Part shown: piece after piece, positions 45,171-60,991 of the stretch
Position numbering within the stretch: position 1 is the stretch's first letter
Layout of the letters: every line of letters starts with the position of its first letter
Assembly (NCBI RefSeq): GCF_900109955.1
Contig: NZ_FOJB01000001.1
Coordinates: 2,418,001 to 2,482,000, forward strand
Length of the DNA stretch: 64,000 bases
From: Aliiroseovarius sediminilitoris
GTDB lineage: Bacteria > Pseudomonadota > Alphaproteobacteria > Rhodobacterales > Rhodobacteraceae
Direction of reading: 5' to 3'
The notes under the pieces: model-generated
Database searches by the model: none
Seen by the model: only the letters and a program-made list of their open reading frames with translations
What the model was told of the DNA's origin: nothing
Position numbers and translations under genes: made by a program

Positions 45171-45533
45171 TCAAACCAATCCGCGCCAGATAAGTATCCC
45201 GGCGACCAAAGCGATCACGATCAGAAGATTCATCAGAACGCTGGCCGAGACATTCACGGCGATGCCCCGCCGCCGATCCCAGACGTCAAGGTTCAGCAGG
45301 TAGTGCTCGATCGCATCGGCCGCTTTCTCAAGTCGTTTTGAATCCACTTGTCGCCCCAGACGTGGATGATCTGACAGCTTCAACGCTTCGATCAATATGG
45401 CACCGTCGCGGCGCAAATGACGAGGCAACAACCGCCCGGCGCGGCGCAACTTGGTTTCAAACCCCGAACCGCGAATGTCCAACCGCTGTTCAAGCAGTTG
45501 GGCCAGCCGATCTGTTCTTGCGCGTATATCCAC
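45171..45533 (-). CDS. small membrane-anchored protein, unknown function
   Basis: A 120-residue protein with an amphipathic, arginine-rich N-terminal part (RTDRLAQLLEQRLDIRG) and one C-terminal membrane segment (VLMNLLIVIALVAGILIWRG). The start is GTG 45533, with AAGGCGGAAG upstream and an in-frame stop before it. It looks like an anchored accessory protein of unknown role. It converges with glyA and is divergent from the hydrolase gene. Confidence 0.7.
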   Translation of the reverse strand: MDIRARTDRLAQLLEQRLDIRGSGFETKLRRAGRLLPRHLRRDGAILIEALKLSDHPRLGRQVDSKRLEKAADAIEHYLLNLDVWDRRRGIAVNVSASVLMNLLIVIALVAGILIWRGLV

Positions 45534-45657
45534 GTGGGCTTCCGCCTTGCTCGATCCGTCTTCGCCGCCATCTTATCGGTATCGCCTGTGTTTGCGAAAG
45601 GGTCCAGCCGAATAAAAGGGGGGTTCAAGCGCGACCGCCGCCACGCTATCAAACCTC

Positions 45658-46416
45658 ATGCTTGAGATGCAGACATACGGCACCGATACGGTGCACCCGC
45701 CCGTCCTGATCGCACACGGCCTTTTTGGCTCTGCACGCAACTGGGGCGTTATCGCCAAACGGATGTCGGCCACTCGCCGTGTGGTGTGTGTGGACATGCG
45801 AAATCACGGGCAAAGCCCCTGGACCCAGAGCCACAGTTATCCTGACCTGGCCACTGATCTGGCCGAGGTTGTGAGCGCGCTAGGCGGCACGGTGGATATC
45901 ATCGGACATTCGATGGGTGGCAAGGCCGCGATGGTGTTCGCGTTGTCTCGCCCCGGAATGGTGCGCCGACTTCTGGTCGCGGATATCGCCCCGGTCGGCT
46001 ATTCCCACAGCCAACAATCCATGATCACCGCAATGCGCAGCATCGACCTGTCACAGATCGAAACCCGAGGGGATGCCGACAGACAATTGGCGCGGGCTGT
46101 CGATGAGGCTTCGGTGCGTGCATTCCTGTTGCAGTCGCTGGATGTCAAGGCGCGGGAATGGCGTCTGAATCTTGATGTGCTGGAACGCGACATGGATTTG
46201 ATCGTTGGCTTCCCAGACGTCAGCGGGCAGTTCACTGGTGCCACATTGTTTCTGTCCGGGGGCCTGTCTGACTATGTTCTGCCTGACCACCGCCCCATCA
46301 TCAAAAAGTTATTCCCAACAGCAAGGCACGCCAAGATCCCACAGACCGGGCACTGGCTGCACGCCGAAAAACCGCGAGAATTTGAAGCTTCGGCTCTAAG
46401 CTTTCTCGGGGCGTGA
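45658..46416 (+). CDS. alpha/beta hydrolase (YbfF-like esterase)
   Basis: A 252-residue hydrolase with the oxyanion turn PVLIAHGLFGSARNW, the nucleophile elbow IIGHSMGGKAAMVFAL, the acid in LSGGLSDYV and the histidine in IPQTGHWLHAEKP. It resembles YbfF-type acyl esterases. Physiological substrate unknown. An ATG at 45658 starts it, upstream of a usable VDMRNHGQSP core. Confidence 0.87.
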   Translation: MLEMQTYGTDTVHPPVLIAHGLFGSARNWGVIAKRMSATRRVVCVDMRNHGQSPWTQSHSYPDLATDLAEVVSALGGTVDIIGHSMGGKAAMVFALSRPGMVRRLLVADIAPVGYSHSQQSMITAMRSIDLSQIETRGDADRQLARAVDEASVRAFLLQSLDVKAREWRLNLDVLERDMDLIVGFPDVSGQFTGATLFLSGGLSDYVLPDHRPIIKKLFPTARHAKIPQTGHWLHAEKPREFEASALSFLGA

Positions 46417-47218
46417 CCGCAAGGTTAACTCCCTGATATTGCCAGCGTTTGAAAGTGTGGCAGGGCTGTAAATCGGGCAAGTTATCTCGGTGCAGGCCAT
46501 TTTCACTGTAAATCAAATGACTTATCTTTACCCCTTGCGAAATTGGAGTAAAGATCCCGCGAACCACCGGAGAAGACAACAACATAGCCCGCCGAAGCGG
46601 GTTCACTAAAATGACGATTTCTGGAAGGGTCAGGCGGAATTCTTCATCGCGACCACGAAATTCACCTCGACATGGATAGGCGAAAACCCCGCGTATCTAC
46701 TTCTGTTCGAACGACTGCCTGAAGGACGCGAAGCCATAACCAAAAAGCGCGAGAGCCTATAGCTCGCCAAGCAGCGGGTATCACCGAGGTTTCATTGAAT
46801 GTAGGTGCCCGACGCCTTACCCGTTGCGGGGTCGATCATCCCCCTCAATGCTGTAGGTGTCCGCATCTTGAATTGGTAAGCTGGACCGCTGCTAAGCTGT
46901 TGAATGATGTGCTTCATTCCGGTTTTTCTCCGAATGGGCCTCGAATTGTAGGTAACAGCTACCCTTTTATTCCGTGTTTCCACCAAAATTTTTAGGCATA
47001 GTATCAATATCTTAGATGTAATGGCGGTGGAAGCGGAACTGGTAGCCAACCTTCTCTGACCTGTGCCCGGCGAAGAAAAGTGGAGAAGCCTCACCTATGC
47101 CTCTGACTTGTATATCATTTCTTCCCACACCCGATTCCATTGCGAAAAAGCGAACTTCATGCACCGGTGTCCGTACATCGTGATTCGATGAGCGATTGAA
47201 GTATGAATAGCGATCTGG
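46417..47218. other. 800-base region without a convincing gene, island border candidate
   Basis: No gene is supported. A 51-codon open frame around 46609-46760 (KGQAEFFIATTKFTSTWIGE) and a minus-strand frame at 46792-47094 have neither ribosome sites nor recognisable domains and may be gene remnants. The segment is more AT-rich than its surroundings, especially 46900-47020. It separates ordinary metabolic genes from the Mo-enzyme cluster, so it could mark the edge of an acquired block. No tRNA or integrase was recognised. Confidence 0.5.
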
Positions 47219-47743
47219 TCAGGCGGCAACCGGGCGCGGGCTAGATCCAAGCCAGTCCAGCACGGCCACGGAAGAATCCGCCAACTCCGCGGCCAACCCT
47301 GCCGAAAAGCTCTCGAATGCGGGCCGGTTCATATCATTGACGCCGACTATCACGGGCACATCCCGCTCCAATGCGGACACGATGACCGGGTGGAAGCCGC
47401 GTCCAGTGGCCTCCTGCTTGCCGAAACGATTAAGGATCAGAAGATCCGGCGCAATGCAGCTGTCTGCCAGGTCCCTGCCAACGGCCATCGCCGCGGTCTC
47501 GATAGCGGATCCATCCAAACGGCATCCGGTAGAGCCCCCACCCAGTTTCTGGCTGATGTTAAGGCGCGCTCCGGTCGCGAGATTGATCAGGTCCATGTCG
47601 CAGGCGTGGCGATCAGCGGCGACGCAAGGTTCAGGCAAGACACCGATAAGCCGACGCCCCTGTCCACCAAGAGTAGCGGCAATTGCGCGCAAGGTGTTGT
47701 CGGCGCCACCACGCGATTGAACCCGGATGAAAGCGATGTTCAA
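47219..47743 (-). CDS. DUF2478 family protein, linked to molybdenum enzymes
   Basis: A 174-residue cytoplasmic protein of the DUF2478 type: FIRVQSRGGADNTLRAIAATL, RLIGVLPEP, NLATGARLNISQKLG, LDGSAIETAAMAVGRDL and DLLILNRFGKQEATGRGF. Such proteins are often encoded next to molybdenum-related genes and have a P-loop-like fold without known activity. It follows the catalytic subunit gene after 58 bases on the same strand and probably helps insert or regulate the Mo cofactor. This is inferred from position. Confidence 0.8.
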   Translation of the reverse strand: MNIAFIRVQSRGGADNTLRAIAATLGGQGRRLIGVLPEPCVAADRHACDMDLINLATGARLNISQKLGGGSTGCRLDGSAIETAAMAVGRDLADSCIAPDLLILNRFGKQEATGRGFHPVIVSALERDVPVIVGVNDMNRPAFESFSAGLAAELADSSVAVLDWLGSSPRPVAA

Positions 47744-47801
47744 TTTCGTTTCCCAATTGAGCTCCCTGTCGCCAGCTGTTTGCGGGCGGCAGGGAGATGA
47801 T

Positions 47802-50471
47802 TTAACCGATGATCGGTCGAGGCTTTAGCGACATCTCGAGGAAATTGTCCTTATACGCACTCTCGCCAACCTTGCGCAGAACACCACGGCCAAGCTTGTA
47901 GCGGTAGTTGCCGGTCACCGGGTCAGGCACCGCGTGACACACCGAGTTCGCCATGGAGCCGGGGTAGTTGAAAGCCGCCTTGGCAACGCCGGGGCGCATC
48001 TCGTCCGAGACAATAGCGACGGCGACGAACTGACCCGTAGTGGTCTTGATGTGACCGTTTTCCATAAGCTTGGCGAAGCTCAAATCGTCCGCTTTTACAC
48101 CGACAGGTTCACCCGATTGCACATACACCGTGTCGTTGAACCCCTCGACCAAATCTCCCGACTCGATACCTTGAGGGGCCGCGTCATCCGGGTGGATAAC
48201 GATATGTGGCCAGGGCCAGCGCTTGGCCAGATAGGGCTTGCGAAGATCATCGAAGCCCGACTGCCAGACCTCGTTGACGCGGCCGTTGGTGATCCAGATC
48301 TCACCTTTTTCGGCACGGGGTTTGATGGCCTCATAGAAGTCCGACCAGCTGTCATTCACCCATGGCGTCTTGAGGATGTTGGCCTTGCCGGTGTGGGTCG
48401 AGAAGGCATAGAGCCATTTCTGGTCCTTGGTATCCCCTTCGATTTCACCCCAGTCGTTCTCTGGATCATGCAGGCGGCCAGTTCCGACCATCTCTCCGTT
48501 GACATAACGAACTGGCGTCTGGATTCCCGTAGTCCCGAGTTCACGCAGTTTTTCGTGACCTCGTTTGCCTTCCTTCTTGGCTTCCTTGACCAGCACATTG
48601 TAGCTCAGAACGCCCGTCCGGGAGAAACGCGCCGCTTCCTCAAAGACATCGTTGCTGTCTTTCCAGTCAAAGCCTTCAAACCCCATTTTCTGGGCAAACT
48701 GAGCCATCGCCCACCAGTCTGGTTTGGCCTCGCCCGGTGCGTCGTTGAATTTGGCATAAAGCCGCAAACGCCGTTCGGCGTTGCACCGGGAGAAGTCTTC
48801 CTCTCCCCAGCCGGCAGCCGGCAGGACGATGTCGGCGTATTGCGTATTCAGCGGCTCGACCGGATAGATATTGCTGTCGACCAGCATCATGCCTCCGCTG
48901 TCGATCCGCGCCTTGAACACTTCGACCAGGTGATCGCGATCAACCGAACGCGGTTGATTGGCGTTGCGCAGCGTGAGGTCAGCGACACGGCTGGCAAGCT
49001 CCTGACTGGCGAGCATCGCCGGAAACCATGTGATGCCCATCGTCCACATGAAACGCACCTTGCCGTCCATTACCCAACGGTCCACATTCAGCGGCTTCTT
49101 GCGGCGTCCGGGATGTTTTTCCGGGCTGAGGAAGCCCTTGCCGGGGCCTGCGCCCATGCCACCGCGCTGGTGGCCGCCGCCACGGCTGATCACTTGGCCC
49201 GGGCGATTGCCCGCGCCTGAGATCAGGCCAAGGGTCGAAAGCGACGCGGTGTTCATGTAGTTGTTGGACCAGTAGTTGCCCTTTTCCAGCATGAACGATG
49301 TCTTCGGTCGCGATCCATCCTCGTTCGGCTTTGCGATCATTTCCGCGCAGCGCATGATATCCTCGGCCGGAAGGCCGGTGATGCGTGCGGCTTCTTCGAG
49401 TTGTGCCGCAGGTTCGTTCGCAATGAACTTCTGGAAGTCTTCCCAGTCCGATTGCCAACGGCCCCAAGTCGTGCGCCACTGCCAACCCGTGTTCCGGGTG
49501 CCGCGACCGTAGCCGGATTCAAGCTCCCAACGGTTGTTCACCCAGGTGTCGATGAACTCCTGGTCCTGCCAGCCATTGTCGATGATGATCTTGGCCAGTG
49601 CCAGATGCAGTGCCGTGTCAGTGCCGGGAATGATCGGCAGCCACAAACCACCGTTCTTGATCCCGTATTCGACCCCCATCGTGCGGTGCGGTGTGACAAA
49701 TATCATCTTCTTGTTGGGGTTGTCTCCGTTCATCATCCATTCGGTGAACAGAACTGTTTTCGTCTCATAGGGGTCGACACCGGAGAGGAAAGCAACGTCG
49801 CATTTGCCCCAGTCCTCATAAGTCGCAGCAAACGAGTTGATCCCGGCATCATCCAGCCCCGTGGCATCCGGCCCGCGCATCGGTTTGTCGTGCCAGGCAT
49901 GTACCGGCGTTCCGATGGCGCGATCCACCAGCTTGCGGATCGTGTAAGTGTTTTCAAAGTATTCGTACGAAAACGTCTTCATGCCCCAGGCATGTTCACC
50001 ATATTTTGACAAAACGTATTTCGACACGTCCGCCATGACATCGGTCACGAGGTCCCAACTGACAGGCGTAAGCACGCCGCCGATACGTACCATAGGGTAT
50101 TTCAGGCGATCTTTCGTGGGCGTCTCGGGATTATAGAGCTTTTGTGCCAGCGTCCCTCCGCGGACGCTGTAGTTTCCACCCGGATTGACCACCTCGGCAT
50201 CTGCGTCGGCGATGACGACGAAATTATGAGGTTTGCCTTCATGCATGCCGACATTGTGTTGGCTGCGCGCAATCCACGGGGCACCAAAGGTTGGGAAATC
50301 AACGCCAAAAGCATTCTGATCAGCTTGCGTGCCGCCTTCCTTGCCGACCGGCCAGCGGTAGACCTTGTAGGAACAGGCAACGATGCAATAGCTGCAGGCG
50401 GTGGTCAGGACTTCCGCATCAGGTGGCGGAAGGGGTACGGACTCGCGGTTGCGAAGAGTTGTATCAGCCAT
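47802..50471 (-). CDS. idrA: arsenite-oxidase-family molybdopterin catalytic subunit, iodate reductase IdrA-like
   Basis: An 889-residue Mo-bisMGD enzyme of the DMSO reductase superfamily. The [3Fe-4S] site is C26-x2-C29-x3-C33 (TTACSYCIVACSYK), with a serine where other members have a fourth cysteine, the hallmark of the AioA group. AioA proteins are usually near 825 residues, so this is longer. From memory of AioA, the pocket histidine (WHDKP) and the R/H pair (SRGGGHQRG) are kept, but the pocket Glu aligns with Asp. The neighbours (two di-heme peroxidases, Rieske subunit) are those of iodate reductase. It has no signal of its own and would be exported with IdrB by Tat. Arsenite oxidase is the alternative. 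Confidence 0.85.
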   Translation of the reverse strand: MADTTLRNRESVPLPPPDAEVLTTACSYCIVACSYKVYRWPVGKEGGTQADQNAFGVDFPTFGAPWIARSQHNVGMHEGKPHNFVVIADADAEVVNPGGNYSVRGGTLAQKLYNPETPTKDRLKYPMVRIGGVLTPVSWDLVTDVMADVSKYVLSKYGEHAWGMKTFSYEYFENTYTIRKLVDRAIGTPVHAWHDKPMRGPDATGLDDAGINSFAATYEDWGKCDVAFLSGVDPYETKTVLFTEWMMNGDNPNKKMIFVTPHRTMGVEYGIKNGGLWLPIIPGTDTALHLALAKIIIDNGWQDQEFIDTWVNNRWELESGYGRGTRNTGWQWRTTWGRWQSDWEDFQKFIANEPAAQLEEAARITGLPAEDIMRCAEMIAKPNEDGSRPKTSFMLEKGNYWSNNYMNTASLSTLGLISGAGNRPGQVISRGGGHQRGGMGAGPGKGFLSPEKHPGRRKKPLNVDRWVMDGKVRFMWTMGITWFPAMLASQELASRVADLTLRNANQPRSVDRDHLVEVFKARIDSGGMMLVDSNIYPVEPLNTQYADIVLPAAGWGEEDFSRCNAERRLRLYAKFNDAPGEAKPDWWAMAQFAQKMGFEGFDWKDSNDVFEEAARFSRTGVLSYNVLVKEAKKEGKRGHEKLRELGTTGIQTPVRYVNGEMVGTGRLHDPENDWGEIEGDTKDQKWLYAFSTHTGKANILKTPWVNDSWSDFYEAIKPRAEKGEIWITNGRVNEVWQSGFDDLRKPYLAKRWPWPHIVIHPDDAAPQGIESGDLVEGFNDTVYVQSGEPVGVKADDLSFAKLMENGHIKTTTGQFVAVAIVSDEMRPGVAKAAFNYPGSMANSVCHAVPDPVTGNYRYKLGRGVLRKVGESAYKDNFLEMSLKPRPIIG

Positions 50472-50486
50472 TTTCTTGATCCTTTC

Positions 50487-51035
50487 TCACGCGCCGGACG
50501 GGTTCTGGCTGTAGCCGTAGAACAGACCCATGACCCCGGTTGCGATAATGTCGTCGCCATCAATCTCGAGCACGATCTGTGGCAGGCTTTCGACGGCATG
50601 ACCGGACACGAGCATCCCGTGTTTGGTCAGGTCGAAAGTAGACAGATGGATCGGGCACGGGCCCAGCACCGAATGCGGACGCTTGAAGTCATCGGCTCCC
50701 ATATAGCCGCCCTGATGCGGGCAGATCGTGTTGAAAGCCACGATGTTTCGTGCCTCTCCCACACCGCCGCCTGCTTCTTCGTCGAGCATGACCAGAACGT
50801 TTTCCACGTTGTCATTCGGGTAGTTGAAGGTTGTCGCGATACCTTGCTTAAGCTCGGAGACCTTACCCACCACTGTACGGACATAGGAGGAGGACACCAA
50901 CTCCTGCGCCTGTGCGCCGCCCATCCCGAAAGTGGCCAGAACCGTCACCGAGGTCCCGCCAAGGATCAGAAAGTCGCGGCGGTTAAAACTTGAGCAGGCG
51001 GTTCCACCTGCTTTTGATCTTGTTGTTTGGGTCAT
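50487..51035 (-). CDS. idrB: Rieske iron-sulfur subunit, iodate reductase IdrB-like
   Basis: A 182-residue small subunit with a twin-arginine signal (FNRRDFLILGG, R19-R20) and a Rieske [2Fe-2S] site: C105-x-H107 in TICPHQGG and C127-x2-H130 in GPCPIHLS. It passes electrons to or from the Mo subunit and carries the heterodimer to the periplasm through Tat. The start ATG 51035 overlaps the stop of the peroxidase gene upstream by four bases, so it is translated as part of the operon. The order peroxidase-peroxidase-B-A fits the idr rather than the aio arrangement. Confidence 0.88.
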   Translation of the reverse strand: MTQTTRSKAGGTACSSFNRRDFLILGGTSVTVLATFGMGGAQAQELVSSSYVRTVVGKVSELKQGIATTFNYPNDNVENVLVMLDEEAGGGVGEARNIVAFNTICPHQGGYMGADDFKRPHSVLGPCPIHLSTFDLTKHGMLVSGHAVESLPQIVLEIDGDDIIATGVMGLFYGYSQNPSGA

Positions 51036-52150
51036 TGCTGGAACTCCGACCATGTTGCGGTTTCGGGGAGCTCCGGCTCATCGAGCAGAAGCGGTTCGTC
51101 CATGGAGAGGGCCTCGAGGAAAGCGACCAGATCGGCCTGTTGCGCCTCATTCAGGCCCAGCGGCTGCAATCCTGCTGTTTGGCCTTCACCGCCTCCGCCA
51201 TTATAGAAGGCAACCACATCGGCAAGATCAGACAACGCTCCGTTGTGCATATACGGCTCTGTCCAGCGCAATTCACGCAAGGAAGGTGTGCGGAACTTAC
51301 CCTTGTCCTTTGGCTGCTTGGTAACGTGATAAAGACCGAGGTCATTATCCCCGTTTCGATAAACGTCCTCGGGCACACCTTTTTGGTACAGTTCCCAACG
51401 CAAGGTGATCTGGTACAGCGGATCTTCCGAGAATTCCGCCGCCGGAGGCACACCGATGTTGTAGAATCTCTGATCCGAGACCAACGCACCATTGTGGCAG
51501 GAAATGCAGCCCGCCTCGCCGTTGAAAATTTCCATACCACGCACCGCGGACTCCGTCATTGCACTTTCTTCACCAGCGAGATACCGGTCGAAAGGGACTT
51601 TGGAAGCGTCGGTGACAATGGTGCGCTCATAGGCGGCAATAGCGTCCCAGGCGTGGGCGACCTGAGGCCACTCGGTGCCGAAGACCTTCTTGAAGTCGCG
51701 GACGTAATCAGGGACGAAACGCAACCGCATTTCCATCATCGAGCCGTCGCCATTGCCGGCAACGGCCCCGCCCGCAGCACCCTTGGCCTGCGATTCAAGC
51801 GAGGTTACGCTGCCTTCCCAGAAGCCCTTGTTGTAGTAGGCCGAATTAAGGATCGTCTGACTGTTGCGCCAGTGTTGCGTACCGGGATAGCCAAAGCTGA
51901 TGGGGCTGCCCGTTCCCCAGCCGGCATCAGGCAGGTGACAAGCCGAGCAGGGCATTGATCCATTTCCGGAAAGACGGCCGTCCCAGAAAAGCTGTTCACC
52001 AAGGGCGATCTTTTCCGGCGTCATGCGGTTGTCGTCTGGGATTGGCGGAGGTGACAAGGTTGCCAAAGGCGGCACGTCGTCCTGCGCCAATGCAAAGGTT
52101 GCGAATGCCAGAGCCGAAGCGCCTGTCAGGATTGCAGAAAGTGTTTTCAT
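51032..52150 (-). CDS. idrP1: di-heme cytochrome c peroxidase, IdrP-like
   Basis: A 372-residue periplasmic protein with signal peptide (ILTGASALAFATFALAQ) and two heme motifs, C68SACH and C215ISCH, as in the CcpA/MauG family. Conserved features include PDDNRMTPEKIALGEQLFWD, PFDRYLAGEESAMT and KFRTPSLRELRWTEPYMHNG. It should reduce hydrogen peroxide using electrons from a cytochrome. In iodate reduction two such enzymes are thought to remove peroxide made by IdrAB. Assignment as P1 or P2 is by position only. Confidence 0.85.
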   Translation of the reverse strand: MKTLSAILTGASALAFATFALAQDDVPPLATLSPPPIPDDNRMTPEKIALGEQLFWDGRLSGNGSMPCSACHLPDAGWGTGSPISFGYPGTQHWRNSQTILNSAYYNKGFWEGSVTSLESQAKGAAGGAVAGNGDGSMMEMRLRFVPDYVRDFKKVFGTEWPQVAHAWDAIAAYERTIVTDASKVPFDRYLAGEESAMTESAVRGMEIFNGEAGCISCHNGALVSDQRFYNIGVPPAAEFSEDPLYQITLRWELYQKGVPEDVYRNGDNDLGLYHVTKQPKDKGKFRTPSLRELRWTEPYMHNGALSDLADVVAFYNGGGGEGQTAGLQPLGLNEAQQADLVAFLEALSMDEPLLLDEPELPETATWSEFQQ

Positions 52151-52162
52151 TGGACCGTCTCC

Positions 52163-53287
52163 TCAGTTCTGGCCGAGTTCGCGAAGCGCGTAGTCAGGCA
52201 ATTCAGGCTCGGTCACGTTAGGCGCATCACCAGTCAGGTTGTTCAGGAAAGCGACCAGATCCGCCTCTTCCGATGGCGTCAGGCCAAGCGGTTCGGACTG
52301 AACGCTTCCCGCATTGTAAAACCGCACCACTTCGGCCAGCGTGTCAAAGACACCGGAATGCATGTAGGGGGCTGTCTGACCGATGTCCCAAAGCGAGGGC
52401 GTGACGAACTTGCCAATGTCGGCCTCGTCCTTGGTGACCACATACTGGCCGACGTCTTCACGCAGGTTCATGTAATTAGGGGTTCCCAAGGTCGCATAAA
52501 ACCGTAGCATCGTGATCTGCCGATTGGCCGTGTCTTCCGCTGTTTCGGGATCAAGACCTAGAAGGTCCGGATGGTCAGGCACACCGGTCGCGTGCAAGTC
52601 ACCGTCAGAAAGCATCGCGCCTGAATGGCAGGAAGCGCAGCCTGCTTTTCCTTCAAACAGGGCCAGACCACGTTTGGCGCTGTCAGACAGTGCATCCTCT
52701 TGACCGCGCATATAGGCGTCAAAGGGTGCGTTCTCGGTCCGGATCGTCTTCAGGAATTCGCCGATCGCACCATACATGCGTCCGCCATAAGGCTCGGCCC
52801 CATAGGCGGCCTGGAACATCTCCATGTATTCTGGCACTTGCTTGAGCCGTTCTTGCGCCAGTCGGCTGTCCATATTCATCGTGTGCGATTCGGTCAGCAT
52901 GTCGCGGACAACCGTCCCGAGATCTGAACCGTCGAGCCGCCCGTCCCACATGAAATAATTGCGGTTGGCAACATTAAAGAGGCCGGGCGCGTTGCGGAAG
53001 TAAAGTAAATCACCATAGCCATCCGAAAGCGCCTCGCCGTCCCCCCAGCCATTTTCAGGGCTGTGACAGGACGCACAGGACAATGCGGTATCTCCCGACA
53101 TACGGGTATCGAAGAACAGCATGCGCCCCAGGTCGGCGCGCGTCTGGTTGATTTCTTTCGGCTCTGGCAATGGCCCAAGCGCATCCGCGTTCTGGGCCGA
53201 TACCATGGTCGCGGCAACGCTTAACGCCAGTGCGGGAATGCCTGCAAGAAACGCTGTCGCCCGCCTTGCCTTGGTCGATCGGGTCAT
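52163..53287 (-). CDS. idrP2: di-heme cytochrome c peroxidase, second IdrP-like
   Basis: A 374-residue relative of the preceding enzyme, with signal peptide (FLAGIPALALSVAATMVSAQ), heme motifs C71ASCH and C217ASCH, and GKFVTPSLWDIGQTAPYMHSG. Start ATG 53287 follows a clear GGAGGAT; the frame from 53359 lacks one. Twelve bases separate its stop from the next peroxidase start. The two peroxidases differ throughout, so this is an old pair, not a recent duplication. Confidence 0.85.
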   Translation of the reverse strand: MTRSTKARRATAFLAGIPALALSVAATMVSAQNADALGPLPEPKEINQTRADLGRMLFFDTRMSGDTALSCASCHSPENGWGDGEALSDGYGDLLYFRNAPGLFNVANRNYFMWDGRLDGSDLGTVVRDMLTESHTMNMDSRLAQERLKQVPEYMEMFQAAYGAEPYGGRMYGAIGEFLKTIRTENAPFDAYMRGQEDALSDSAKRGLALFEGKAGCASCHSGAMLSDGDLHATGVPDHPDLLGLDPETAEDTANRQITMLRFYATLGTPNYMNLREDVGQYVVTKDEADIGKFVTPSLWDIGQTAPYMHSGVFDTLAEVVRFYNAGSVQSEPLGLTPSEEADLVAFLNNLTGDAPNVTEPELPDYALRELGQN

Positions 53288-53324
53288 GTGATCCTCCATT
53301 TTTCGAAATTTGGGGCGAAACGGG

Positions 53325-53753
53325 TCATTTCTTTGTCCCATCTGCGTTGTAAGTGGCAAGAAAGGCGATCACGTTGACCACCTCCTCGTCTTTTCATAGG
53401 CTTGCAAAAGACATCTTGTTGCCCGGCACGGTGGCCGTCGGGTCGGTCAGATACGCGGCAAGTGTGACGTCATCCCAGACAATTCCGCTATTGCTCATTG
53501 CATCGGAATATTTGAACCTCTCAACGGCACCTGCCGATTGTCCAACAATCCCGTTGAGGACGGGACCAACGCGGTTCTTTGCTTTTTCGCCAACTTGACG
53601 GCAAGTCTTGCACTTGCCAAAGACCTTTTCGCCAGCATCCGCATCCTGCGCTGACAAAAATGTCGGCGTAAATGCAGTTGCCGCCAACGCAATGACGAGA
53701 TGAAGAATAAGTCGTGATTTCACCGAAGTCCCTTTCGTCAATATTTGCGGCAT
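53325..53753 (-). pseudogene. class I cytochrome c with lost heme ligand and internal stop
   Basis: The frame begins at ATG 53753 after AGGGGG, with a signal peptide (LHLVIALAATAFTPTFLSAQ) and a cytochrome c2/c550-like body: GEKVFGKCKTC, RVGPVLNGIVG, MSNSGIVW and ATVPGNKMSFASL. Two lesions are visible. The heme motif reads CKTCR, so the proximal histidine codon is now arginine. A TGA at 53394-53396 interrupts the frame after MSFASL, where relatives continue with a lysine-rich KDEEVVNVIAFLATY helix that is still present to 53325. Either change alone would kill it. It is the first gene of the idr operon and was probably the electron donor or acceptor. Confidence 0.75.
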
Positions 53754-53821
53754 GCGAGCCCCCTGGATTCAACGTGCTTTCTTGCGTTCTGTCCCAACGA
53801 TAGCACCGACCATCTGCGTTG

Positions 53822-53871
53822 ATGTGACAGACAGCGTTACCAAATGTTGTGAAATGTGACGATATGTGACG
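53822..53871. promoter_or_regulatory. direct repeats upstream of the idr operon
   Basis: ATGTGACA (53822-53829), ATGTTGTG (53844-53851), ATGTGACG (53854-53861) and ATGTGACG (53864-53871). The last three are spaced by exactly 10 bases, one helical turn, and the first by 22. Tandem sites of this spacing are typical of OmpR/PhoB-type response regulators, and such a regulator is encoded at 56157-56888. They lie 70-120 bases before the operon's first gene. Confidence 0.55.
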
Positions 53872-53878
53872 GCGCTAT

Positions 53879-56089
53879 TCAGGTCGCATCGAGGTGCTTG
53901 CGCAAGAGTTTTGCCAGTGATTTCGGGTCGATCGGTTTCGCAATAATCGCTGGCGTCGGCCCTGTGATCGGGTCAAGTCGTGGCGCAAAACCGGTCAGGA
54001 AAACAACCGGCAGAGTTGGACGCGCCAATCTCAGTCGCAAGGCAAGCTCAACGCCGTTCAGGTCAGGCATCACCACATCGGTGATAACCACGTCAAAGCG
54101 GTCCGGGGCAGTTTCGAAGCTACGCAGCGCCGAAGTCGCCGAGGTGAAGGCCTCGATCCGATAGCCATACCGCATCAGACTGCGGCGCAATGTGGCGGCA
54201 ACCTCGGGTTCGTCATCCACGATCAGTAGCCGCTCAGTTCCATAAGGTGGTGTGTCGGTTTCACCGCTGGCTTCTTCATCGGATGCGTTGCTGCCCGGTA
54301 AAAGGACAGTGAAACAGGTGCCCTGCCCCGCAATGCTCTCGACTTCGATGCTTCCGCCCATGTCGGTGACCAACCCATGTACGACGGCAAGCCCAAGTCC
54401 GGTGCCCTTGCCAAGGGGTTTGGTGGTGAAGAAGGCGTCGAAAACCCGCCGACGCACATCTTCCGTCATTCCCGGCCCATTGTCCTCGACCTGCAAGCGG
54501 ACCCAATATGGCACCTCTTTTGTTGCGGTGCGCGAGGCGTCGATATCTTCCTTTACAGTGATTTTCACGGCCCCCGGTTTGCCGCCAATCGCTTCGGCCG
54601 CATTGCCGCACAAGTTCATGATGATCTGATGCAATTGGGTCGGATCGGCGGCAACCCATGCCGGGACGCTTTTGGCATCGAACATGAACTTCGTTGTTGG
54701 TGCCGTCGCCGCACGGATCAACCGGAGCGCCTGTTGCACCGCCTCGGACAGGTTCGTCGGAACAGGATTGCCGGACTTGCGACGCGCAAATCCCAGCAAC
54801 TGTTGCACCAGAACCTGAGCGCGGCGGGCGCCGATCTCGATCTGTTCGATTTCGTGCGCGATATCACTGTCCGGGACGGCATCCAGTGCTGCAAGATGGG
54901 TCGATCCCAGTATGGACGTCAGGACACTGTTGAAATCATGGGCGATCCCGCCAGCCAGCAACCCAACAGCTTCGATCTTCTGCGCACGGGCCATTTGTTC
55001 CCGGGTCTTGAGCCGTTCAGTGATATCCTCGCCAATGCCAAGATAGCTGTGTGCTGATCCATCAGCCCCTCGCAGCGGCAGGATAGTGGTTTCGACCCAA
55101 TAACTGCCTCCATCTTTCTTGCGATTGTGCAGCACGCCCCGCCATGTTTTTCCCTCGGCCAGCAAAGCTTGCATCTGTCTGTATTCGCTGTCTTCCGTAT
55201 CACCCGACTGAAGAAATTTTGGAGTCTGCCCCATGACCTCGTCGCGGGACCAACCAGACAGGTCTTCGAAATGACGGTTCACGTATTCAACATGTCCTTC
55301 CGTATCGGTAATCATGATTGTCGCCGGGCTTTGCTCCACCACCTGTGCAAGCCGCTGTGCGCGTTTCTCAAGCCGGTTTCGGATTTCCAGTTCGCCGGAC
55401 AATTGTGTCATCGAGACCTGCATCTGCGATAAAAGAGTCCAGAAAACAAACGCCAGCGTCAGCGACGCGACCACAAGAAGCGCCATTGACATGAAACCAA
55501 TCCGGATCAGGTCCTGACCACGATCCACAGAAGTGATCAGCCGTTCAGTTTGCCGCTTTCTGTTGGTTTGCCAAATCGTTTCCAGTGTCTCGAAGGCTGC
55601 CAATGCCGAAGTGTCATCGACCCGTACCAGCGCATCGGTCTGCTCTGCGGTCCAGCCGTCGACCGCCGCCTGCTGGGCGACAAGTAGTTTCTGACGATAG
55701 GCATCAATAGTCATGGCGATCGTGATCAGCGACTCGCGCTCTGCATCCGAAATGGGTAACGAAAGATAGTCGCCCATCGCGGCATCAAATTGCGACAACT
55801 GGTCCAGCAATTGCTGAAAATAAGCTTCATCTTTTCGCAACACGTAATTCTTGAAGGAATGGATAATGCCACCATACCCTAGATGCCCGCGAATCGCGCT
55901 GATTAAGGCACCCTTTCGGTCAGCCTCACTGGCGAACTCCGACCAGCCATCGGCGATATCAAGAAACTGCTTTCGTGTTTGTGACCCCAGAAAAAGGCCA
56001 GTGGTGACGATGCCCAGCAGCAATACACCTGCTGCCAAGGCAGTCCAGCGCGCTTTGGTACGGGGCGTCAGTCGGGAGTCTCCTAGCAT
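53879..56089 (-). CDS. hybrid sensor histidine kinase
   Basis: A 736-residue membrane kinase. Two membrane segments (about 15-35 and 198-222) enclose a periplasmic sensing domain. PAS about 245-365 ([19 protein letters not shown]), HisKA with the phospho-His in [11 protein letters not shown], HATPase with [16 protein letters not shown] and [11 protein letters not shown], then a receiver domain about 620-736 with [22 protein letters not shown] and AKPID. It lacks a separate phosphotransfer domain. It is close to the idr operon upstream and divergent from a response regulator, so it likely senses iodate, a redox signal or electron-acceptor availability; the signal is not shown. Confidence 0.88.
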
Positions 56090-56156
56090 GTCTCAATCTT
56101 GTCATGGCAGGTGAACACGGGCAATAATGAAGCGGAGTCATGTAGTTGAGAGAACA

Positions 56157-56888
56157 ATGCCAGAAAGCATTCTAATCGTCGACGACGATCATCAGGTTAC
56201 CGAATTCCTCGAACGTTTCCTGTCAAAATACGCCTATCAGACTGCGTCAGCTGGGTCAGCGACGCAGATGAGTCTGCTGATGGAGCATCGCGAATTTGAT
56301 CTTGTCGTCCTTGATGTCGGCCTTCCTGACATCGACGGATTTCAGGTTGTTCGAGATTTGCGTCGCGTTTCGTCGATCCCGATCATCCTTTTGACGGTGC
56401 GGGATGAAGTCGTTGACAAGATTGTCGGGCTGGAAATCGGGGCCGATGATTATGTCGCCAAACCGTTCGAGCCGCGTGAGCTTCTGGCGCGGATCCGGTC
56501 TGTCCTGCGCCGTGCTTCAACAAAACCGGAACCTCAGGGAGCGCCGCAAGGCCCGGAAACAGTTTTTTCCGGGTTTCGGCTGGACACCGATACACGCAAG
56601 ATCGCGGCGCCATCCGGAACGAACGTACCTTTGACTTCGACCGAGTATTCGATACTGGTCGCGTTGGTTCAAAGATCCGGAGAAGTCGTGGGACGCGATC
56701 AATTGATGGACATGCTTTATGGTGGATCCGTTCACGTGACCGATCGCGCCCTGGATGCGCACATTGCGCGCATCCGACGCAAACTCGTGACAGCGGGTGC
56801 TGAACCAGACCTGATCAAGACCGTTCACGGATCAGGCTATGCCTTGGCTGCCAAAATTGGAACTCCCGGTGTTCAGGACTTCACATAA
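56157..56888 (+). CDS. OmpR-family response regulator
   Basis: A 243-residue regulator: receiver domain with LIVDDDH, phospho-acceptor Asp in LVVLDVGLPDIDG and lysine in VAKPFEPRELLARI, and a winged-helix C-terminus (VPLTSTEYSILVALVQRSGEVVGRDQLMDMLYGG, RALDAHIARIRRKL, TVHGSGYALA). Start ATG 56157 follows GAGAGAA. It is divergent from the hybrid kinase and the likely binder of the direct repeats at 53822-53871. Pairing with that kinase is inferred from adjacency. Confidence 0.88.
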   Translation: MPESILIVDDDHQVTEFLERFLSKYAYQTASAGSATQMSLLMEHREFDLVVLDVGLPDIDGFQVVRDLRRVSSIPIILLTVRDEVVDKIVGLEIGADDYVAKPFEPRELLARIRSVLRRASTKPEPQGAPQGPETVFSGFRLDTDTRKIAAPSGTNVPLTSTEYSILVALVQRSGEVVGRDQLMDMLYGGSVHVTDRALDAHIARIRRKLVTAGAEPDLIKTVHGSGYALAAKIGTPGVQDFT

Positions 56889-57315
56889 CCAATAGGAATT
56901 AGACATTTCCCCGTGCTTCCAAAATTACCAAGCAAAGCGTCTACAAATCTAGGGGCACCTCACGTCACGTGCTTCTGCATCAGTGCGCCGTATCTACAAT
57001 CACCCATTCCCATACATGGTTGATCCCGACGGGCCAAAACACCCAGAACTCGCCGGCTAAACCGAGAGCGCGGAAACTTGGGCGCGACGCCAATTTATGA
57101 CGCCGGACCCTGGCACCCTTAAGTGACCGATTTTTGCAGCGCCGTTTGACAAGGTTTTGCTCGGCCATTGCAGTCCCAGCCTATCTCAGAAGACATGATC
57201 TGAGCCTGTGCGCCGCCTGCCACGGTTCGTTTGAATAAACAGGCAATTGTCGGACTGCCATTTGTAATGTGCTCGCGGATTGCCACTGGGCAGTCTGACA
57301 ACCTATTGTTGATGC
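56889..57315. other. intergenic region before the quinol oxidase operon
   Basis: 427 bases with no supported gene. A 62-codon minus-strand frame at 56980-57168 ends with an aromatic-rich stretch (GEFWVFWPVGINHVWEWVIV), but it has no convincing ribosome site and no known family, so I do not call it. The cyo promoter must lie here. Confidence 0.5.
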
Positions 57316-58278
57316 ATGGGATTCGGAAATATCTCTTTGACGCGCTTCATCCTGCTTGCATTGGCATTGGTGGCAAGCGGCTGCACACGCGATGCTGGGT
57401 CTCTGCTCAACCCGAAAGGATCAATCGCGGCCGATCAACTGGGACTTCTCTATCAGGTGACAGCCGTTACGATGATCGCCGTCCTGCCCGTTCTTATTTT
57501 CGTTCCGCTGATGCTCTGGCGCTATCGCTACAACAACCGAGCCGCGAAATATGAACCCGGTTGGGACGAGTCCCGCAGGCTCGATCTGGTCATGTGGGGC
57601 GTGCCCTTTGCCATCATCGCCTTCCTGGGCGTCCTTTTGTGGCGCAGCACGACGCTTCTCGATCCTTATCGCCCGATCGAACCAGCCGCCGCGGCGACCC
57701 GCGTGCAGGTGGTCGGACTCGATTGGAAATGGCTATTTATTTATCCCGGTGAAGGCATCGCGACCGTGGGTGAACTGGCGTTTCCCGCGAGCCGCCCGCT
57801 GGCGCTGGATTTGACTTCGGACACAGTCATGCAGTCGTTCATGGTCGGGGCGCTTGGCGGACAGATCTACGCGATGCCGGGGATGCGCACGCAACTGCAC
57901 CTCAGCGCAGACAGCCCCGGCAACTACACCGGTGAGAACATGCAATATAGCGGTGAAGGCTTTCATACCCAGAAGTTTCGGGCGACCGCCATGACAGACG
58001 CGGGTTTCGCAAACTGGCTCGATGCGGCCCGTCAGGTCGCTGCGCCACTGGACGCCGCAGCCTATGCCACGCTATCCGAACGCGGCACCAAGGATGAACT
58101 GCGTGCGGCGTTTCCAACGGCGGTCACGCAGGACGGAGCAGTCGTTTTCCGTCTGGGCGACCCCGGATTGTTCGATACGATCATCGCGCGGTATCGCGGG
58201 TCAGTCCCCGTCCTGCCGGAACAGCAGCCCGGATCACTGTCGTTTCAAAACACTTTGCCCACTGGAGCCAAACCATGA
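57316..58278 (+). CDS. cyoA: cytochrome bo3-type quinol oxidase subunit II
   Basis: A 320-residue lipoprotein (lipobox LVASGC at about residue 23) with two membrane segments (LPVLIFVPLMLWRYR, VPFAIIAFLGVLLW) and a periplasmic cupredoxin-like domain. The CuA cysteines of cytochrome c oxidases are missing: the matching segment reads QYSGEGFHTQKF, as in CyoA. It therefore takes electrons from quinol, not from cytochrome c. First gene of a four-gene operon; its stop overlaps cyoB. Confidence 0.9.
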   Translation: MGFGNISLTRFILLALALVASGCTRDAGSLLNPKGSIAADQLGLLYQVTAVTMIAVLPVLIFVPLMLWRYRYNNRAAKYEPGWDESRRLDLVMWGVPFAIIAFLGVLLWRSTTLLDPYRPIEPAAAATRVQVVGLDWKWLFIYPGEGIATVGELAFPASRPLALDLTSDTVMQSFMVGALGGQIYAMPGMRTQLHLSADSPGNYTGENMQYSGEGFHTQKFRATAMTDAGFANWLDAARQVAAPLDAAAYATLSERGTKDELRAAFPTAVTQDGAVVFRLGDPGLFDTIIARYRGSVPVLPEQQPGSLSFQNTLPTGAKP

Positions 58279-60368
58279 TCGACCAGTGGAACTGGTTCAC
58301 AGGCAGGATCGGGATCGACAGTTTTTCAATTGTCGTTGCCTGGCAAAACCCGACCACAAGTGAGTTGATTGGCGCAGGAGCGGCGTCGGTCGTGGTGATC
58401 GGTGGGGCCGTGACGGTTGCCTTGCTGACGTGGTTTCGCCTCTGGGGACCGCTCTGGCGCAACTGGCTGACCAGCGTCGATCACAAGCGCATCGGAATCA
58501 TGTATGTGGTGCTGGCCTTCGTGATGCTGCTGCGTGGCGTGCTGGAAGGCGTGGTGATGCGCACGCAACAGGCGGCGGGTCTGGGCGGCGGTTTCCTGAC
58601 GCCGGAACATTTCGGCGAGCTATTCTCGACCCACGGCACGATCATGGTGTTTTTCGTCGCCATGCCGTTCGTGGCTGGATTGATCAATTATGTCATGCCT
58701 TTGCAGATCGGGGCGCGGGACGTGTCCTTTCCAGTGATGAACCAGATCAGCCTGGGTATGACGGCCGCAGCAGCGGCGCTTGTCATGGTCTCGCTGGTCG
58801 TCGGACAGTTTTCAACCGGTGGCTGGACCGGCTATCCGCCGTATACAGGCATGGATTTCCAGCCCGGCCCGGGCCCTGATTACTGGATCTGGTCAATCGT
58901 GATCGCGGGTGTCGGATCGACCCTTTCAGGTATCAACTTCGCTGTGACAATCTACAAGGAACGCGCGCCGGGGATGCACTTTTTCCGCATGCCGCTTTTC
59001 ACCTGGACCGCGCTTACCGCCGCCATCATCCTGATCTTCGCCATGCCGCCCCTGACGGTGGCAGCACTCATGCTGGCCGCCGACCGGTATCTCGACTTCC
59101 ATTTCTTCACCAATGACTTGGGCGGGAACATGATGAACTACATCAACCTGTTCTGGCTGTTCGGACATCCCGAGGTCTATCTGCTGGTGCTGCCCGCCTA
59201 TGGTGTCTACTCCGAGGTGATCGCGACCTTTTCGGGCAAGCGCCTGTTCGGCTATCCCTCGCTGGTCTGGGCGACGATGGCGATCGCGGTGCTGTCGTTC
59301 ACGGTCTGGCTGCATCATTTCTTCACCATGGGCCAGGGCGCCAACGTCAGTGCCGCCTTTGGCATCGCCACAATGCTGATTGCGGTGCCGACCGGCGTGA
59401 AGGTCTATGACTGGATGGCGACGATGTTCCGGGGGCGCATCCGGATGACGACCCCGATGGTCTATTCGGTGGGGTTCCTGATCCTCTTTGTGATCGGCGG
59501 CCTGACCGGCGTGATCCTTGCCAATCCGAGCATTGACACCCAAGTGCACAACTCGCTGTTTCTGGTGGCCCATTTCCACAACGTGCTGATCCCGGGCGTG
59601 CTGTTCGGGATGCTGGCGGGCTATCACTACTGGTTTCCCAAGGCCTTCGGGTTCCGTCTGGACGAGACGTGGGGGAAAATCGCCGCCTGCCTGTGGATCA
59701 TCGGGTTTTCTCTGACCTTCATGCCACTTTACGTCGTCGGATTGATGGGTATGCCGCGCCGGACCGTTGCCTTTGCCGATCCGGCCTTTCAGCCCTTCAT
59801 GCTGGTCGCCGTCATCGGGGCCGCGGTCGTCCTGTGCGCCGTTGGGGCGCTGGCCGTGCAGCTGTTCGTCAGCATCCGCGACCGGAAGGCAAACAACGTG
59901 TTTGCGGGCGATCCCTGGAACGGGCGCACTCTGGAATGGTTCACCTCCTCCCCGCCGCCCGATTACAACTTCGCCGTGGTGCCCGAGATCACGCAGCGCG
60001 ATGCCTTCGCCGTGGCCAAGGCATATGGCGACGCTTATCAGGAGCCACCGGAGTTCGAGGATGTCGAGATGCCCGCCAATACCGCGTTTGGTTTCATCCT
60101 CTGCGTCGCGGCGGGCGCGTTTGGCTTCGGGTTGGTCTTTTACATCTGGTGGCTGGCTGCCCTGTCCCTGCTGGTGATCGTTGGCGCGATGATCGCGCGG
60201 AGCTTCGTTGCGGAAACCGAGCGCACGATCCCTGCGGCCGAGGTCGCCGCCGATTATCGCCGCTGGCTCGATGCCGTGCGCGCCGCTGAGCCGGTGGACC
60301 GAACGCAAGAGCAAGGCGCCGCAAACCGTGGCCATGCCTTGCGCGAGCTGCCCGAGGGGGTCGTCTGA
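58275..60368 (+). CDS. cyoB: cytochrome bo3-type quinol oxidase subunit I
   Basis: The 697-residue catalytic subunit, with about fifteen membrane segments. The low-spin heme His is in FSTHGTIMVFF, the CuB His-Tyr pair in WLFGHPEVYLLVLPAYGVYS, and further CuB and heme ligands in HHFFTMG and VAHFHNVLIPGVLF. It has the N-terminal extension WFTGRIGIDSF typical of CyoB. It reduces oxygen to water and pumps protons, a high-capacity oxidase for oxic conditions. Confidence 0.94.
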   Translation: MIDQWNWFTGRIGIDSFSIVVAWQNPTTSELIGAGAASVVVIGGAVTVALLTWFRLWGPLWRNWLTSVDHKRIGIMYVVLAFVMLLRGVLEGVVMRTQQAAGLGGGFLTPEHFGELFSTHGTIMVFFVAMPFVAGLINYVMPLQIGARDVSFPVMNQISLGMTAAAAALVMVSLVVGQFSTGGWTGYPPYTGMDFQPGPGPDYWIWSIVIAGVGSTLSGINFAVTIYKERAPGMHFFRMPLFTWTALTAAIILIFAMPPLTVAALMLAADRYLDFHFFTNDLGGNMMNYINLFWLFGHPEVYLLVLPAYGVYSEVIATFSGKRLFGYPSLVWATMAIAVLSFTVWLHHFFTMGQGANVSAAFGIATMLIAVPTGVKVYDWMATMFRGRIRMTTPMVYSVGFLILFVIGGLTGVILANPSIDTQVHNSLFLVAHFHNVLIPGVLFGMLAGYHYWFPKAFGFRLDETWGKIAACLWIIGFSLTFMPLYVVGLMGMPRRTVAFADPAFQPFMLVAVIGAAVVLCAVGALAVQLFVSIRDRKANNVFAGDPWNGRTLEWFTSSPPPDYNFAVVPEITQRDAFAVAKAYGDAYQEPPEFEDVEMPANTAFGFILCVAAGAFGFGLVFYIWWLAALSLLVIVGAMIARSFVAETERTIPAAEVAADYRRWLDAVRAAEPVDRTQEQGAANRGHALRELPEGVV

Positions 60369-60991
60369 TGGCACAGGACACAATCAAGCACCCCGGCATC
60401 AACCTTGGTGCGCATCATGGACACGCCCACGACAAGGCCGAGACACTCGTCTTTGGCTTCTGGGTTTTCCTGATGAGTGACCTGATCATCTTCGGTTTGA
60501 TGTTCGCCAATTACATTACCCAACTGCCGGGCACGGCCGGCGGACCGGGGCCGAAAGATCTGTTCACCCTTGGCAGCGCCTTCACCCAAACCATGGTCTT
60601 GCTGGCCAGTTCGGTGACGTTCGGCATGGCGTCGCTTGCGCTGAAATACGAACGCGGAAAGGGCGCATTGCTGGGCTGGCTGGCGGTCACGCTGCTGCTT
60701 GGTGCGGCTTTCCTCGCGCTGGAGTTGCGGGACTTCTCGGACATGTTCGCCAAGGGGGCGATCCCCAGCCGCAGCGGCTTTCTTTCCGGGTTTTTCGGGC
60801 TGGTGCCGCTGCACGGGCTTCATGTGACTGCTGGGATTCTCTGGGGGCTGGTGCTGATGGTGCAGGTCGTCTCCGTCGGCCTGACGACGCCGGTCAAGAC
60901 GCGCCTGCTGCGGCTGGGGCTGTTCTGGCATTTCCTTGACATCATCTGGATCGGGATCTTCTCGATCATATATCTCGGAGGGCTGGCATGA
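60368..60991 (+). CDS. cyoC: cytochrome bo3-type quinol oxidase subunit III
   Basis: The 207-residue subunit with five membrane segments (WVFLMSDLIIFGLMFANYI, VLLASSVTFGMASLAL, LLGWLAVTLLLGAAFLALE, GLVPLHGLHVTAGILWG and FWHFLDIIWIGIFSIIYL). The WHFLDIIW motif is the subunit III signature. Its ATG overlaps the cyoB stop and its stop overlaps cyoD by four bases. Confidence 0.93.
   Translation: MAQDTIKHPGINLGAHHGHAHDKAETLVFGFWVFLMSDLIIFGLMFANYITQLPGTAGGPGPKDLFTLGSAFTQTMVLLASSVTFGMASLALKYERGKGALLGWLAVTLLLGAAFLALELRDFSDMFAKGAIPSRSGFLSGFFGLVPLHGLHVTAGILWGLVLMVQVVSVGLTTPVKTRLLRLGLFWHFLDIIWIGIFSIIYLGGLA

Follow-up and report, generated by a model that had tools for sequence, protein, structure and literature searches.

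The closest described relatives of the locus analysed here are the idrABP1P2 islands of Pseudomonas sp. SCT, Denitromonas sp. IR-12 and Azoarcus sp. DN11. They encode the iodate reductase IdrAB and two di-heme proteins, with the P genes ahead of idrB and idrA and a twin-arginine translocation (Tat) signal on IdrB. In Betaproteobacteria, idr is accompanied by two-component genes that were suggested to sense iodate (PMC10149662, PMC8801600). In Roseovarius azorensis, idr is induced by low oxygen and by iodate down to 0.1 μM, showing that seawater-level iodate switches on idr in a marine bacterium (PMC11445184). The same paper reports that bacterial iodate reduction can supply iodide to the sea surface, where ozone reacts with iodide, and that iodate reduction was measured in R. 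azorensis, Notoacmeibacter marinus and Aliiroseovarius sediminilitoris, the last of which is reported to carry idr; the strain measured is not necessarily the one analysed here. The kind of enzyme is already known and iodate reduction in Aliiroseovarius is on record. What detects iodate is not stated in the open-access literature searched, and a word search of PMC11445184 found no mention of regulators, sensors, two-component systems or histidine kinases. We analysed a 64,000-nucleotide stretch of A. sediminilitoris (contig NZ_FOJB01000001.1, positions 2,418,001 to 2,482,000; hereafter the window, in whose numbering coordinates are given). It holds an iodate reductase (idr) locus of Aliiroseovarius (Rhodobacterales) that is probably under its own two-component switch, and these bacteria may detect iodate by means of this switch next to idr.

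The original prediction, made from the sequence alone, had placed a probable idr operon on the minus strand at 47219-53753, and the open reading frames were found there as claimed. In the order of transcription, a cytochrome-like gene (53394-53753) is followed by genes for two di-heme proteins, a Rieske subunit, a molybdenum (Mo) subunit and a DUF2478 protein, and their ends are indeed close or overlapping (gaps of 34 [to the listed TTG start], 12, -22 [overlap], 15 and 58 bases). The Tat-exported Rieske subunit (CxH-x19-CxxH, Tat motif RRDFL at 25), the AioA-family Mo subunit with its C26-x2-C29-x3-C33 motif and the DUF2478 protein were all borne out. Family matches of the five genes other than the cytochrome were far above chance; the weakest was the Pfam Rieske domain (E 2e-5), an assignment backed by NCBIfam TIGR02694 at 4e-27.

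Tree, sequence identities and synteny supported the predicted iodate reductase rather than an arsenite oxidase. IdrA is 92% identical to its counterpart in Roseovarius autotrophicus (L001), 81-87% to those of five further loci (L002-L006), 65% to an Azonexus plasmid protein and 47-52% to a large, mostly alphaproteobacterial group, but only 28-30% to three AioA rows, namely NT-26 (L111, an arsenite oxidizer), Thermus (L112) and Paracoccus (L113). A tree of the Mo subunit had been proposed as one check of the prediction. In an 83-row tree, the three AioA rows split from the 80 others with a Shimodaira-Hasegawa-like approximate likelihood ratio test (SH-aLRT) support of 100, and the Mo subunit did not branch inside AioA but on the IdrA side, where it grouped with L001-L006, with Azonexus and Thiothrix one step farther out. 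This tree was built by a quick method with a midpoint root and gave long-branch warnings for L112 and L075. It omits six loci whose match spans at most 80% of the query (L059, L060, L074, L080, L089 and L107) as well as reverse-strand matches, and its rows include no named, genetically tested IdrA. In addition to the IdrA branch and the motifs given above, idrP1 and idrP2 adjoin idrAB, a further marker of Idr. The residue spacings differ slightly from those of DN11: Ser102 lies 68 residues past the third Cys and the Rieske spacer is 19, compared with 70 and 18 in DN11. Among 21 Aliiroseovarius genomes examined, an IdrA-grade match was found in three (G000, G013 and G008). In the draft genome G008, contig C56 (L168, 11754-14429), IdrA is in three pieces, reflecting either assembly frameshifts or a decaying gene.

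Directly upstream of the cluster, outside the coordinates of the original prediction, lies a kinase/regulator pair (53879-56888). A kinase with a divergent regulator stands upstream of idr in 26 of the 81 loci compared (the related loci being the best 80 of 97 relatives), and both alphaproteobacterial IdrA sub-groups are represented. Among 295 genomes of the family, the kinase was found at E<=1e-100 in 12, all of which belong to the 16 that have IdrA (Fisher 2.5e-18, a test that takes genomes as independent despite their kinship). The sensor part alone retrieved the same 12 genomes at E<=1.1e-28, with the next match at 2.6e-18.

The sensor part of the window protein had no Pfam match at E<=1. 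Its AlphaFold model (residues 1-250) is all-helical, with a mean predicted local distance difference test score of 90.5, and can be read as a periplasmic four-helix bundle between two presumed membrane helices. A fold search with the model gave no PDB match at E<=0.001 (best 4k0d at 2.1e-3), and the weak matches were kinase, chemoreceptor and NarQ sensors; a PDB profile search yielded one unconvincing match (E 0.053). Invariant sensor residues in 28 rows include W49, R67, H77, K80, N81 and R85, and as a guess the basic ones among the invariant residues might bind an oxyanion. TorS/TorR and NarQ-type systems sense respiratory oxyanions. The window resembles these systems in having a hybrid kinase, an OmpR-type regulator and repeated decamer boxes before a Mo-reductase operon, and also in its helical periplasmic sensor, NarQ fragments being among the weak fold matches. 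It differs from them in that the window kinase showed no Hpt domain in the Pfam scan, and in the box sequence. Other idr loci carry other types of regulatory gene, with an atoC/atoS-type sigma-54 pair in DN11 (PMC10149662) and, in Azonexus and Thiothrix, a sigma-54 regulator beside an 'ATP-binding protein', whereas the window has a hybrid kinase, an OmpR-type regulator and a decamer promoter.

The spacer between the kinase and the first P gene carries a repeat array that begins eight bases past the kinase stop codon, with copies starting at 53870, 53860, 53850, 53840 and 53828. In 21 of 29 such spacers the array scored at least 18 of 24 at a period of 10 base pairs (bp); no spacer reached this score at any of the control periods (7-9, 11-14), and among 5800 first-order Markov resamplings 0.05% did so. 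When both strands of the 81 loci were scanned, the score of 18 was reached in 21 of the 26 loci with the kinase upstream and in none of the 55 others, and the best site of the locus fell in the kinase-to-P spacer in 24 of the 26 (exceptions, L018 and L030). The fifth copy reads GCAACA in the aligned loci, and a -10 element lies 26 bp from its start, with TA in 22 and the final T in 20 of 23 loci; six low-scoring spacers of the 29 (L018, L019, L025, L030, L078 and L160) had been dropped from this alignment. A -35 element with five of six TTGACA matches occurred in none of the 23 loci, and four of six were found in one, L005. A -10 without a TTGACA-like -35 fits an activator-dependent promoter, which is no proof of one. 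The box GTCACAN4GTCACA has a single occurrence in the 3.41-Mb genome, at the idr promoter. Co-occurrence and promoter geometry predict that the regulator binds the array.

Sequence comparison thus establishes a set of parts, namely IdrAB belonging to the IdrA clade, a pair of Tyr-type di-heme proteins, a cytochrome gene that is broken and a conserved kinase/regulator pair with a repeat promoter, and we infer from it the function of the locus and its switch. At low oxygen, iodate or a product of its reduction would reach the hybrid kinase at its helical sensor in the periplasm, and the kinase would phosphorylate the OmpR-type regulator. The regulator would bind the 10-bp repeats and recruit RNA polymerase to a promoter with a -10 but without a recognisable -35, and idrP2-P1-B-A would then be transcribed. 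With IdrB providing the Tat signal for its export, IdrAB would reduce iodate with electrons from the bc1 chain via a cytochrome c encoded elsewhere, and the two MauG-type di-heme proteins would handle H2O2 and reactive iodine formed on the way. With a defined promoter, regulator and sensor, iodate detection becomes directly testable.

It is possible, though we consider it unlikely, that the pair senses low oxygen, the redox state or products such as H2O2 and hypoiodous acid, with idr as one of several targets. The kinase also carries a PAS domain, the closest solved sensor folds bind varied ligands, and idr is induced by static growth as well as by iodate (PMC11445184). A dedicated switch nevertheless fits better than a global one, because the kinase is confined to IdrA genomes among the 295 family genomes and the window genome contains the exact two-copy box a single time.

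Several observations weigh against the proposed switch. The kinase search scored three candidates per genome, and four of the 16 IdrA genomes lack the kinase; three of these four are assemblies of 340-490 contigs, and G211 has only an idrA remnant. In 55 of the 81 loci, some of them on short contigs, no kinase is seen upstream; four carry a more distantly related form on the downstream side. Genomes without IdrA also contain weak relatives of the sensor (13 of the 26 genomes at E<=1e-4), so the sensor fold in itself is not specific to iodate. The kinase loci L018 and L030 have no good array, and that of the window is imperfect (19 of 24, with copies 3 and 4 degenerate). Because the GTCACA consensus was chosen from the same spacers, the controls are limited to the resamplings, the alternative periods and the 55 loci without the kinase upstream, and because the loci are related, the p-values overstate independence. 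A sigma-70 scan found no consensus promoter at this site of the window, and such a promoter was discarded as a candidate, although its absence would also fit dependence on an activator. Across the family, GTCACAN4GTCACA gave 47 matches in 42 of the 295 genomes compared with 36 for the reversed control; this frequency near chance rules out the two-copy box as a family-wide marker. Three of the 47 matches adjoin idr (G000, G251 and G281).

Three of the 12 kinase genomes carry a kinase of 39-40% identity about 8-9 kilobases (kb) from idrA (G023 and G089) or on another contig (G265). At the loci concerned in the first two genomes (L165 and L166), it is the whole kinase/regulator pair that stands at this distance, not directly upstream. 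The kinase closest to that of the window (67%; G193:C1:293089-295272, L160) has one TGA within the match. In G211, contig C59 (L163, 10643-11839) retains only IdrA residues 488-887 (86%) followed by DUF2478, with no B, P or kinase match in 18 kb, which looks like the loss of an idr island.

The two proteins encoded ahead of idrB had been called di-heme cytochrome c peroxidases. Two di-heme proteins were confirmed, each with two CxxCH motifs, but a Tyr that aligns with the axial ligand of MauG suggests that 'cytochrome c peroxidase' is the wrong sub-type and that they are probably of the MauG/MbnH type. Their best NCBIfam matches are MbnH and MauG, below cut-off (TIGR03791, 189.8 and 197.6 bits vs. 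443.85; TIGR04039, 201.2 and 171.2 bits vs. 362.85). In the alignment, Tyr occupies the MauG axial-ligand column in 66 of 67 P_a rows (one gap) and in all 67 P_b rows. This column corresponds to residue 314 of the P. denitrificans MauG precursor, which we take to be mature Tyr294, provided that the signal peptide has 20 residues. An annotated MbnH also has Tyr there, whereas four plasmid-borne peroxidase references show a gap with a Met nearby. Unlike MauG/MbnH enzymes, with which they share the axial-position Tyr and the two CxxCH motifs, the window proteins have no mau or MbnP-like gene among the examined neighbours and score under the family cut-offs.

That both are ordinary bacterial cytochrome c peroxidases fed by cytochrome c is therefore doubtful. 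The CCP_MauG fold is shared, the top PDB sequence matches of the first di-heme protein are peroxidases and the published models name them so; the near-invariant Tyr, its absence from the peroxidase references and the family matches, sub-threshold as they all are, point the other way. The Tyr in both proteins alters which assays suit their role. In the open-access literature no paper linking IdrP1 with MauG was found, and none of the papers listed for iodate and MauG concerned iodate reductase. Searches of the same literature found nothing for iodate with a response regulator and idrA or for iodate with Azonexus hydrophilus. Nor did this limited literature yield an OmpR-type pair with a decamer promoter, the confinement of such a pair to IdrA genomes or an IdrP of the Tyr type.

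The history of the locus was examined with gene trees of 13 chosen rows for IdrA and 11 for the kinase and the regulator. The window IdrA is sister to L001 (100/100), and its kinase and regulator are sister to those of G193 (100/100 and 100/99); the swapped groupings were rejected for the kinase (p 8e-37), the regulator (p 9e-4) and IdrA (p 4e-6). The P_a and P_b trees do not decide (G193 grouping, p 0.25 and 0.085), and IdrB groups with L003, with L001 not rejected (p 0.135) and G193 weakly rejected (p 0.014). Moreover, the kinases of the window's IdrA sub-clade do not form one clade (p 0.0002), and Azonexus and Thiothrix, which are sisters of that sub-clade by IdrA, have the sigma-54 regulator instead. 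The conflict between the kinase and IdrA trees means that control and reductase genes have been exchanged, in one direction or the other, and that the locus is a mosaic. A broader reading is, in our judgement, evenly balanced: that alphaproteobacterial idr loci share a dedicated iodate switch (the hybrid kinase with an unnamed helical sensor, the OmpR-type regulator and the five-copy GTCACA/GCAACA promoter) kept in place while reductase genes were swapped between lineages, and that IdrP1 and IdrP2, instead of being plain peroxidases, form a MauG-type pair whose high-valent haem chemistry acts on reactive iodine or peroxide.

The predicted c-type cytochrome of the cluster did not prove intact. 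Its haem motif is CKTCR (residues 48-52) instead of CxxCH, and its frame is interrupted by TGA at codon 120, beyond which it stays open for another 22 codons before meeting a second stop; a genome-wide PF00034 search independently showed one TGA inside the cytochrome match. The 119-residue product has no Pfam match at E<=0.001, and its NCBIfam match, cytochrome c-550 (113.7 bits), is below the cut-off of 240. The CxxCH site and the complete C-terminal part of a functional class I cytochrome c are thus missing, and a working electron-donor cytochrome in the operon was ruled out. Between the kinase and the first P gene, a tblastn search found no match to the cytochrome, either in the 81 loci (E 1e-6) or in nine other idr loci (E 1e-4). 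Homologues are widespread in the family, with 169 of its 295 genomes matching at E<=1e-20; among the matches listed, identity does not exceed 63% and no match sits at an idr locus. We therefore read the gene as a decaying insertion. It is improbable that the lesions are sequencing or assembly errors in an intact gene. Either could be one wrong base and they are known from one genome, but two lesions fall within about 140 codons of a 6-contig assembly rated 100% complete, and no relative searched has a cytochrome here that would signal a need for one. With this gene broken, electrons must come from another genomic cytochrome c, and 18 other cytochrome c stretches were found in the genome (PF00034). 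For islands without a cytochrome gene, an electron donor encoded elsewhere has been suggested (PMC8801600). The broken gene itself distinguishes the window from the described islands. In L042, a 45% cytochrome match lies 2.3 kb downstream of idrA on the opposite strand.

The original prediction had also regarded the order cytochrome-P-P-B-A as possibly lineage-specific. This was not upheld, as P-P-B-A is the usual order in related loci and idrAB is described as 'always preceded' by both peroxidase genes (PMC8801600). In 62 of the 81 loci, idrB has P-type genes upstream; among the remaining 19, nine start within IdrA/IdrB or shortly before them, and ten are deep relatives. In DN11, consecutive accessions belong to A, B, P1 and P2 in turn (PMC10149662), so that the neighbour of idrB is taken as IdrP1 and the first gene as IdrP2, and the name idrABP1P2 appears to run against the direction of transcription. 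The start codon of the first di-heme gene is uncertain (TTG listed, internal ATG likely). The DUF2478 gene comes after idrA in L001, L003 and L006; several more loci have it at a greater distance downstream.

Arsenite oxidase AioBA with AioXSR shares the cofactor motifs and the B-A gene pair with the window locus, but has no P genes and other regulators. As the original prediction had held, plain aio is organised differently, NT-26 having aioX, a kinase, aioR and the small and large subunits in a row. Its statement that no arsenic genes are nearby held for the genes examined at 45171-60991, the part of the 64-kb window that was searched: none was AioX-like, no aioXSR adjoined, and the regulator belongs to the OmpR type. 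The window carries Asp in the alignment column that holds the arsenite-site glutamate of AioA, presumably Glu203 in A. faecalis (alignment read by eye). The arsenite_ox_L cut-off is passed (NCBIfam TIGR02693, 'arsenate reductase (azurin) large subunit', 441.8 bits vs. 359.05), but because the Azonexus homologue is annotated under the same name, this model does not discriminate. That the enzyme is nonetheless Aio, or another Aio-like oxyanion enzyme of unknown substrate, is hardly credible: this match, the AioA/AroA proteins that top its PDB sequence matches and the automatic Aio name of the Azonexus homologue are set against the low identity and fully supported split from AioA, on which the arsenite oxidase reading was ruled out, and against the adjoining P genes, the different regulators, the Asp and the need for idrA in iodate respiration of Denitromonas (PMC8692401). 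A chlorite dismutase route was also discarded, since no PF06778 match was found in the window genome; most of the described idr islands likewise lack this enzyme.

Features of the idr locus and its putative control region, in window numbering
Feature	Position	Strand	Basis
DUF2478 protein, last cluster gene	47219..47743	-	Pfam PF10649 E 3.6e-43; 69% identity in L001
IdrA, Mo/3Fe-4S catalytic subunit	47802..50471	-	tree, identities, motif C26-x2-C29-x3-C33
IdrB, Tat-exported Rieske subunit	50487..51053	-	CxH-x19-CxxH, RRDFL at 25; TIGR02694 94.6 bits, cut-off 95.65
Di-heme protein adjoining idrB (IdrP1, name inferred), probably MauG/MbnH type, Tyr320	51032..52150	-	two CxxCH
First di-heme protein (IdrP2, name inferred), probably MauG/MbnH type, Tyr351	52163..53359	-	two CxxCH
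Broken cytochrome c gene	53325..53753, open part 53394-53753	-	CKTCR for CxxCH, TGA at codon 120
Predicted -10 box TATCGT of idr promoter	53797..53802	-	26 bp past fifth repeat start
Predicted regulator-binding array	53823..53870	-	GTCACA, GTCACA, ACAACA, GTAACG every 10 bp (53870-53835) and fifth GTCACA (53828-53823)
Hybrid histidine kinase, candidate iodate sensor	53879..56089	-	Pfam PAS, HisKA, HATPase, receiver; AlphaFold residues 1-250
OmpR/PhoB-type response regulator, divergent, 37 bp from kinase	56127..56888	+	Pfam PF00072 and PF00486

The ten deep relatives mentioned above are IdrA-like genes of 40-45% identity (L065-L072, L075 and L076) from Acidimicrobiia, Chloroflexota and others, which have an IdrB and no P match, three of them with less than 1 kb of upstream sequence; they are possible intermediates between Aio and Idr. 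DNA similarity to the six congeners examined breaks off near 46440 (46394-46441), just past a conserved glyA-hydrolase block, and this marks the left border of the acquired region. A right border was not found, and the window contains no transfer RNA gene. Quinol-oxidase-like subunits I and II, for which the 81 idr loci searched gave no match, belong to a group of genes (CyoA-like subunit II, subunit I and subunit III; 57316-60991) that adjoins the regulator.

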